Shown here: piece by piece, positions 44,301 to 47,300 of the stretch
Position numbering within the stretch: position 1 is the first letter of the stretch
Layout of the letters: every line of letters begins with the position of its first letter
From: Chiridota heheva
Lineage: Eukaryota; Echinodermata; Holothuroidea; Apodida; Chiridotidae
Reading direction: 5' to 3'
DNA: 64,000 nt
NCBI GenBank assembly: GCA_020152595.1
Contig: JAIGNY010001701.1
Span: forward strand, 108,501 to 172,500
Notes under the pieces: model-generated
Told to the model about the DNA's origin: nothing
Seen by the model: only the letters and a program-made list of their open reading frames with translations
The model's database searches: none
Program-made: the position numbers and the translations under genes

Positions 44301-47300
44301 GGTGAGCAGGGGTAAGGAAACGTTACGTAATAGTTGATGTGTCCTCTCTAAAAACATGCATTTGATTTGTCACATAATCAACAAGAAAATTATATTTACC
44401 CCGGTAAGCGTAGCGAGATATTTACGAGAGTTATACTTACCTTCCATGCTATTAATATGCAATCTGGTCACATGACCTGATTCTAAGGCACTTCTAACCA
44501 ACCTTAAAAACGTAGTTACCAGCCAAGCCCTGACCTCCATATTACCTCTACTAACCCTCACTCTTTTCAGCACTTTGTTTGCAACAACATCGCTGGAACT
44601 GGTCATTTTTTTAAAAATTAATTTAACCTCTTTCTAACAATTTTCTTCTTTGCAGTTTTTACCAGGCAGGTTTTCCCCTGCTCTATCTTAGTAATGGAGT
44701 GAGAACGAGATGGTGGTGTTGGATTAGACATGTGCTGAGTAAGAGCAATGATGATGATGGTACTTTGGCCCTAGAATAGACACCTGAAGGTAGAAGGAAG
44801 GTAGAAGGAACGTAGACAGGCCTATAGAAGAATGATGTCCAGGCCTTGTGCGCCTTCTGGCGCTGAGAGATTTAAGGTTAAGGTTAGGCTATTATTTGGA
44901 CACTACAAATATGTGGGCGCTTATTAAAACGTGGGTGCTTATTAGAGCATGGGTGCTTATTGGAGCATGGGAGCTTATTACGTCGTATATGATATGTCAA
45001 ACTTTGTCTCCTTAAAAAGGCTTTGTTTAATAACCCCTGACCTACCTTGATGTCAATGTTCCCTACCCGTGACCTACCTTGATGTCAGTATCCCCTACCC
45101 CTGACCTACCTTGATGTCAATGTTTCCTACCCCTGACCTACCTTGATGTTAGTGTCCCCTACCCCTGACCTACCTTGATGTCAATGTCCCCGTCGAGTGG
45201 CTGCTGATCTGTAAATCGATGCTCTTCTTCAACAACATCTCTGCTTGGTAGTTGTTGGTGCGAACGCCTTTTGTTAGTAGGCCGGAAGTCAACATCGTTG
45301 ATCTGTAAATACACATAAAACAAACTTAAACATCATTAATGATTTGGGAGGTGGTGAAGGTGGATTGAGGAGGATTGGAGGGATAAGGTTGGGATTTAGG
45401 AAGTAGTGGCTGAAAAAAAGAGGCTTTTTTACTAGTTTATTCAATTCCTTCTGTACATGCATAATTAATTATTTATTTTGTATGTTTTCTGTTATTTGTA
45501 TTATAAGGGGGTTTTGCACCCATATGTTTTAGGTAGTTTTGTGCAGAATCTCCTCAGCCACTGTGTTTATCTTTGTTAAACCATGATTGTATGACCTCAT
45601 TTTTAAATTTACCTAATGAATATATATTTATATATATTTCAATATGTATGTTATTTTACTCAATGAATATTGTGTATATTTGTAATTGTTTGGCTGGAAG
45701 AAAGTTTTTAAAATGAAATGAAATGAAAATTAAACCAAACTGATAAACTTGATTACAACTTTCCAGCAGTTGCCATGATATGCAAGCAATAGAATTCCAG
45801 AGCAACTTGCCCCCTTGACAAATTCTTGCTAGACAACTTATAGAAAAGTTTACAATGGCCATTTCTGTCCATATTACAGTAACTACTATTAATTTTGGAC
45901 TAAATACGTCTGCTATACTGGACCCAAATCAATAAATTTTTGACAGTAAAACCTTAAACTTTGAAATGCAAATCTTGTTCCAATACTCTTGGTATTTGTA
46001 ACTTGATATTTCTTTTTATTCTCCTTCCTTTGGCTGTTGACCCTTATCCCAACTGCCGCTGTTCAGATTTGGATTGCCTTTTTGAGAAATACTTCTGGGA
46101 AAAAAATTCCACTCACCCCCTTAATTGAGCTTCTGTCATACACTATCTGTCAAACTAACTGATTGAATTTTTCCACTTTTCTGCAGAAACACTATTTAAG
46201 TTTGCCCCTTCTGGCTGCTCAAGCTGGAAATGCCCCTGCATGCAGAGTGCCACAAATCAACCTAAGAAACAATGTGTCAATGAATGGTGGAAAAAGAAAG
46301 GACCAAAGCTGGGTGGGCTTCTCAGGGAACATCCAGAGCAGCGGTAGCTGATAGAGATGGATGGATGCAATCTATGGAGCCTTATATGCCACCGAGCGTG
46401 AATCAGACAGTGCTGAGGTGAGATAAGTTGTATGGTTACATAATTACTAAATTAAATTACTATATTCTTGCAAACACAAACCTCATCTGAAACTGTGGTA
46501 TCGGGTCGTTCCTCCTGGTCAACTTCCGATGAGGAACTTTTGTGTCTATCATCATTCCCCTCAATTTCTGGAGCACTGAAGAACCCCTTGAGTCGACCAG
46601 TGCTGACCATGGCATTGGTGCAATATGAGAAGACGATGGGTAAGACCAACAATGGAACAAACATTTGGTTAAAGATGGCGAGAGCCGTGAAAGTGATGGC
46701 TGGAGTGAGAGGATGACCTGTCAGAGTTTGGTGTAAGGCAAAGGTCTACAATGGAAAGAAAATGGAAAAGTTTTATTTGTAAAGGAATATTCCCCAAAAT
46801 TGTATTTTTCCATATATACGATAGAGCACTATTAAAGAAAGAAATTTGTGTGAAAACCATGTTGATATCTTATTCCATTTAGAGCTTATTGCATTTCAAA
46901 GGTTTTGCCAGTGTGTTGAAAAGTGACCTTGCAGTGTACAGTGTGATGTCATAATTGTACCTACAAGACAATATTAATTTCCAAATAAGGTAAAGGTATC
47001 TTTATTATAAGCATTTTTTGTTCAATTATTAAGAAGGGGTGTAATATGCACATTGAAGTCACAAAGTGACATCTTAACTAGTCTGATTCCAGTCGTTTCT
47101 ACACAAATGATACCAAACTTTAAAAGGATTAGTTTATTGATCAAACATGTTTATCTTATATGAAAGAGGACTTTAAAAGAAACAAAATGGTGAAGTAAGT
47201 GTTCAAAAATCTTATTCCATTAAGGAGATATTTAAGTTTAAAGTTTGGTATTATTTCTGTAAAAATGACTGAAATCAGACGAGTTGTGATATCACAGCCT

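Follow-up and report, generated by a model that had tools for sequence, protein, structure and literature searches.

Five identical donor sites in a minisatellite across an exon–intron border of an ABCC transporter gene in Chiridota heheva

How does a coding exon keep its boundary when the donor site that ends it is repeated, letter for letter, at regular steps into the following intron? The question arises from a minisatellite in the window (the whole stretch of Chiridota heheva DNA analysed here, 64 kb), where an initial annotation had described five donors 32 bp apart, the first of them the real end of an exon in a transporter gene, and had called such a layout rarely described. We characterized the host gene, the array and its predicted effects on the message, placed the array against the repeat content of the genome and compared it with documented repeat systems at splice sites.

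The host gene and its exon border

Exon E5 (45174..45302, minus strand) comprises 129 nt or 43 codons, is in phase 0 at both ends and encodes the linker before NBD1 (INDVDF...DGDIDIK). Its assignment draws on an open frame with AG before 45302 and GT after 45174, the upstream flank ending in TGTATTTACAG and the downstream flank reading GTAGGT. The preceding exon (46482..46745, minus strand), whose product ends in ...TTVSDE, also closes in phase 0. Downstream of E5, an intron of 2640 nt (42534..45173, minus strand) starts inside the array and leads to a 79-nt exon (42455..42533, minus strand) that encodes the first strand of NBD1, as placed by alignment to SUR2B. An acceptor at exon base 42533, as the initial annotation had it, fits the sequence (tttcatttgtag|GTTACT).

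When the exon translations were joined through the first donor of the array (donor 1), the best PDB match was SUR2B (7mit_E, E = 1.1e-117). The first 11 of the 60 matches listed, from 567 matched entries, were ABCC9 or ABCC8; SUR1 was likewise among the closest proteins of known structure, and the MRPs and others scored lower. Over TMD1–NBD1, protein similarity places the host gene in the ABCC family, nearest to SUR1/SUR2, as a potassium-channel-regulator-like transporter. The SUR2B segment DVAIKVTNGYFSW aligns to the spliced product without a gap at the donor 1 junction (DVAIK|VTNGYFSW), and because the alignment is gapless there, this junction is taken as the conserved one. Protein conservation thereby points to donor 1 as the coding donor, with the junction in the first strand of NBD1, which upholds the earlier view of the first donor as the real exon end.

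Twenty exon cores in open frames include the Walker A, LSGGQ and Walker B regions of NBD1 and the Walker A of NBD2, the NBD2 core containing GRTGSGKSS. These cores were picked by eye and form an incomplete list that covers the middle of the gene and leaves out its ends; within that span the gene looks intact.

Array structure and the outcome of donor choice

Written out unit by unit, the array is a five-copy minisatellite of 32 bp (45032..45191, minus strand); TRF reports a period of 32, 5.0 copies and 88% matches over 45033–45191. Each unit consists of 18 nt resembling the exon end and 14 nt resembling the intron start, the five units adjoin without a gap, and unit 1 holds the real exon–intron border. 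The sequence CAAGGTAGGT is identical in all five units on the minus strand, at exact 32-bp spacing, and contains the same 10-mer in every copy, CAAG on the exon side and GTAGGT on the intron side. Donor 1, the coding exon end, lies at 45168..45177 and has a predicted U1 duplex of -10.3 kcal/mol. The further donors, called from sequence match, U1 prediction and a translation model, lie at 45136..45145 (donor 2), 45104..45113 (donor 3), 45072..45081 (donor 4) and 45040..45049 (donor 5), all on the minus strand. From donor 1 to donor 5 the last exon bases are 45174, 45142, 45110, 45078 and 45046, and the intron GT starts at 45173, 45141, 45109, 45077 and 45045. The number, spacing and last exon bases of the donors thus agree with the initial annotation, as does the extension of the array over the end of E5 with intact copies of the splice site.

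To the original count of five, the analysis adds four secondary U1-like sites, GGG|GTAGG, which lie amid the main donors (45059..45165, minus strand; GT at 45162, 45130, 45098 and 45066). Their predicted U1 duplexes are -9.4, -8.9, -9.4 and -10.5 kcal/mol, compared with -10.3 for the main donors, which brings the array to nine good U1 sites within about 130 nt. Donor 1 ranks high by this measure: only 18 of the 3753 GT sites on the minus strand are at least as good, the array's own sites included, and among 15 exon donors of the gene, assigned from 19 exon ends scanned, a single one is predicted to be stronger.

The units differ at seven variable columns (3, 4, 6, 8, 10, 27 and 32), five of which are changed in one unit only. 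The remaining changes pair the units, a C at column 8 being common to units 2 and 4 and an A at column 4 to units 3 and 5; these matching changes, few as the events are, hint at growth of the array by two-unit steps. Since unit 5 runs on into GGGGTTATTAAAC, while each other unit continues into the next, the old continuation of the intron seems to sit on the fifth unit. Because the unit also contains coding sequence, the intronic units amount to frame-intact variants of the exon end, encoding GDTNIK, GNIDIK and GDTDIK. TAGGG, the hnRNP A1 core, occurs in three places of the array, and ACTAAC in unit 2.

Two further properties of the array were considered and set aside. Avoidance of the nine donor columns by the seven variable columns was not significant (P = 0.07), and for that reason the comparison gives no evidence of selection keeping the extra donors. 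The predicted RNA fold of the array was no better than that of shuffled sequences (z = -0.25; matched or bettered by 82 of 200 shuffles), and RNA structure was accordingly rejected as a feature of the array.

The consequences of donor choice were followed in a translation model of exons 5–7. Splicing from donor 1 leaves the frame open through 104 codons, whereas all nine modelled alternatives (+4, +11, +32, +43, +64, +75, +96, +107 and +128 nt) yield a stop within these exons, at zero-based codon index 46 for +4, 75 for +11 and 47 for the other seven, whose protein would stop right after ...IDIKVGQG. Use of donors 2, 3, 4 and 5 would retain 32, 64, 96 and 128 nt, respectively. The period of 32 is not divisible by three, and the extension from donor 4, although in frame, has a TAG inside. 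An in-frame TAG just past donor 1 (45159..45161, read from 45161 to 45159 on the minus strand) would lie in every transcript that uses donor 2 or one beyond it. The model thus reproduces both the frame argument of the initial annotation and its expectation of a protein cut short just ahead of NBD1 if a later donor is used. Skipping of E5, in turn, would keep the frame, because 129 equals 43 × 3 and the phase is 0 on either side.

Origin of the array and its genomic background

A 25-mer from the unit, searched with up to three mismatches through the 1.1-Gb assembly, found five matches, all of them in this array, and its reversed control found none; the search gave no sign of a dispersed minisatellite or a transposon-borne repeat. 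A 281-base query comprising exon and array matched only itself. With a longer query, 40 scored matches were retained out of 3573 candidates, and the non-self ones cover only a dispersed repeat at 44500–44690 in the intron after E5; its 39 further scored matches have 87–93% identity.

The intron is found at the same place, in phase 0, in three paralogues of the same genome. Their linker exons end in IDIK (GGCATTGATATCAAG|gtatgc; C1694, locus L034, near 31.6 kb), VAIR (GACGTAGCAATTCGG|gtatgt; C3266, locus L035) and YVE (GTGGAG|gtaaga; C3718, locus L036, with the donor assigned by eye), and TRF detected no array over the three borders. The paralogue matches are weak by themselves (E = 0.002 for C3718, 0.04 for C1694 and 8.7 for C3266), so that the calls rest on the surrounding exons, with the linker exon chosen by eye in all three; the following Walker A exon was found in two of them (L034 and L035). 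Because the paralogues have the intron without the array, and the unit core is private to this locus, the most likely history is one ancestral donor, followed by local duplication in tandem of an exon end that already existed. By this comparison among paralogues, the intron predates the array. The C1694 paralogue has a tandem duplication of its own (L034, 729–796), of 33 bp and 2.1 copies, in the reading frame of the linker exon.

How unusual such a position is depends on how much of the genome is repetitive. Arrays with units of at least 8 bp and at least 2.8 copies make up 13.8% of the window, and arrays of 12–200 bp make up 8.3% of a 284-kb sample taken from one contig, which includes the window and from which 63 arrays were kept. 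At least three period-spaced sites at -9 kcal/mol or better occur in three of the 63; at -10, only the E5 array remains. Among the 40 ends of the 20 exon cores, one lies inside an array, compared with a mean of 5.2 under random placement of the window's 27 arrays; over 5000 trials, at least one end fell inside in 97.6% and one or none in 6.6%, figures to be read with the cores having been chosen by eye from an incomplete list and some core ends lying slightly inside the true exon. Attraction of arrays to exon borders was rejected on these numbers, which show no enrichment and, if anything, avoidance.

Donor-like motifs in tandem were also counted genome-wide, as overlapping matches that, in the rows listed, come mostly from a few long arrays. 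The triple AAGGTRRGT pattern gave 1818 matches against 1508 in the reversed control, and triple CAGGTRAGT gave 281 against 849; enrichment was rejected, and only the conclusion that such motifs are common follows. Since arrays fill so much of the window and arrays of donor-like motifs are common, one exon border within an array is expected for so minisatellite-rich a genome, and the single case here is no more than random placement gives, which weakens the earlier emphasis on rarity at the locus itself. What sets the E5 array apart is the strength of the copied donor and its intact state in every one of the five units. Elsewhere in the assembly, arrays at G000:C1:400121-400417, C23:83152-83323 and C219:2645364-2645422 have a similar core near AAGGTGAGTCATTGCAC and possibly form one family of donor-like minisatellites.

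Other repeats and elements in the window were recorded alongside the array. A large intron of the E5 gene contains three copies of a 171-bp unit (48877–49389, 97%), each of which, on the minus strand, includes ...GGCAATTGCAG|GTAAT, resembling an exon end with its donor. Introns of the gene also hold a 36-bp array of 44 copies (34947–36517) and a 15-bp array of 74.6 copies (59548–60662), and a 41-bp array (40530–41100) stops 21 nt short of the NBD1 exon core that starts at 40509, just upstream of its acceptor. A seven-copy minisatellite of 43 bp (43610–43910) lies inside what looks like a LINE reverse transcriptase-like remnant (44155–43054); two ORFs tested for that stretch had no Pfam match at E <= 0.01. 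Farther away, a reverse-transcriptase-like reading frame at 12800–16500 on the minus strand perhaps belongs to a retroelement of the DIRS or a related type, and two ORFs neighbouring it had no Pfam match. The minus-strand stretch 32741–34959 is probably a LINE remnant; it includes an RNase H-like frame (32741–33370; Pfam RNase_H at E = 0.0025, short of the curated cut-off) as well as two reverse-transcriptase-like frames within 33953–34959, for which Pfam gave no match.

Known systems and the reading of the locus

The closest documented counterpart is the VNTR in intron 18 of human ABCA7, which is nearly identical in layout and has been measured; the claim that such an arrangement is rarely described is therefore not supported. 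In the portion of their account drawn on here, De Roeck et al. (2018; PMC5954066) describe a 25-bp unit that opens with the two bases of the exon 18 donor; splicing at the donor of the next unit retains 25 nt, shifts the frame and leads to a premature stop. The isoform with one retained unit makes up about 2 ± 1% of transcripts (as that source gives its values in a 'respectively' construction), cycloheximide raised the stop-bearing transcripts, and VNTR length correlated with skipping of the next exon, not with unit retention. As far as that account goes, the two arrays share their placement in an ABC transporter gene, the inclusion of the natural exon donor, a next exon that is part of NBD1, a unit that is not a multiple of three and a premature stop from the next donor, modelled in the present case. 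In contrast, the ABCA7 array begins with the GT of the intron and numbers 23.7 copies in the reference, whereas the E5 unit includes 18 nt of exon and occurs five times; ABCA7 is not an ABCC gene, and its isoforms and length variation were measured, while the E5 array is known from the sequence of one assembly. With the natural donor included, an intact donor in each further unit and a stop from any later donor, the E5 array can be classed, on its sequence, as an ABCA7-like splice-donor array whose unit also carries coding sequence.

Other precedents lie further away. De Grassi and Ciccarelli (2009; PMC2812944) catalogued internal tandem repeats at exon–intron boundaries in human genes of segmental duplications; in the excerpted account, variable repeats average 30-bp units and four copies, and 27 intron modifications are counted, a record that likewise tempers the claim of rarity. 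Their cases are, like ours, minisatellites that include exon–intron boundaries; unlike ours, they can give rise to new introns and were examined across paralogues with transcripts in support, whereas the E5 intron is old. In the part of the literature on GYNGYN donors consulted (PMC8055015, PMC1779574), closely spaced alternative donors are also described, by motif 3 nt apart, while those of E5 are 32 nt apart, derive from a minisatellite and are known at the level of sequence. VNTR length in MIR137HG is associated with alternative donor use in the same exon (PMC6692358, as excerpted). The CTNS VNTR was rejected as a precedent, the repeat being purely intronic in the source as seen in part, and so was a Caenorhabditis elegans paper linking minisatellites to splicing, which, in the part at hand, does not concern copied splice sites.

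We consider it very probable that the array is a local minisatellite that arose when a 32-nt stretch of exon end and intron start was duplicated in tandem, that donor 1 is dominant, that leakage to other sites is minor and that the array can drift in a near-neutral manner. U1 may be able to bind any donor of the array; splicing from donor 1 would dominate because it is transcribed first and adjoins the exon body, and it would supply nearly all functional mRNA. The sequences between donors, with their G-runs, TAGGG motifs and single ACTAAC, may further disfavour the downstream donors. Human cell reporters with ACTAAC or other intronic motifs inserted between competing donors showed suppression of the intron-proximal one (PMC1877881), and for hnRNP A1 a preference for intron-distal donors is described (PMC5585400, in part). 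The same source ascribes to SRSF1 a preference for intron-proximal donors, which, applied to the E5 array, would mean donor 5 and counts against donor 1 dominance, and the presence of only three TAGGG motifs counts against an hnRNP A1-type suppression of later donors. A small share of transcripts would use donor 2 or the +11 GGG|GTAGG site instead, acquire the premature stop and undergo nonsense-mediated decay, as in the ABCA7 VNTR. Gain or loss of whole units would leave the mRNA nearly unchanged while the first donor is used, and for this reason the array would drift almost neutrally.

An improbable alternative is that the array works as a rheostat, its copy number setting the share of truncated, decayed or E5-lacking mRNA through U1 sites and silencer-like linkers, and that this effect is used or selected. 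The density of U1 sites, the stop from every modelled alternative and the in-frame skipping of E5 speak for it, as does the correlation of ABCA7 VNTR length with next-exon skipping and lower expression (PMC5954066, as excerpted); they are opposed by the single exon copy found in the assembly, the non-significant conservation of donors among units, the ordinary RNA fold and, in the same source, a unit-retaining isoform unchanged with VNTR length. A shade less probable again, and given little weight here, is a reading in which the intronic units serve as a reservoir of variant exon ends that unequal exchange could promote into the coding exon; copy number would then set what share of the transcripts of this channel regulator is poisoned or lacks the exon, and changes in the units would stay hidden for as long as splicing starts from the first donor.

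That later donors win, giving mainly truncated or decayed mRNA from a hypomorphic allele or a gene on its way out, appears most unlikely. Identical donors compete, and some factors favour intron-proximal sites (as excerpted sources describe), but the gene looks intact, with NBD1 motifs and the NBD2 Walker A in open frames, and it seems to have outlived the birth of the array, because the five units had time to diverge at seven columns. Short tandem arrays are known to be error-prone in assemblies, yet expansion of a true single copy by an assembly or sequencing artefact has almost no probability in our estimate, given that five of the seven differing columns are changed in single units, a pattern that single-read stutter would not give. 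Zhuo and colleagues are said to have described, in 2007, introns arising from tandem arrays. Tandem genomic duplication of an AGGT segment, which can yield both a 5' and a 3' site and so a new intron inside an exon (PMC3443670, in part), resembles the E5 array in the AAG|GT of each unit, but here an existing donor is copied into an existing intron shared in position by three paralogues, the units have no pyrimidine tract before AAG, and steps of 32 nt are short for an intron, so that intron birth is scarcely credible.

The locus offers a clean natural experiment on spliceosomal choice: of five identical donors spaced 32 nt apart, one preserves the protein, and each other donor modelled truncates it. 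The E5 array is also a counterpart, in a distant genome and similarly placed within an ABC transporter gene, of the disease-linked ABCA7 VNTR. It probably matters little while the first copy is used, and if donor 1 takes nearly all reads, the locus would show how minisatellite-rich genomes can tolerate such arrays.
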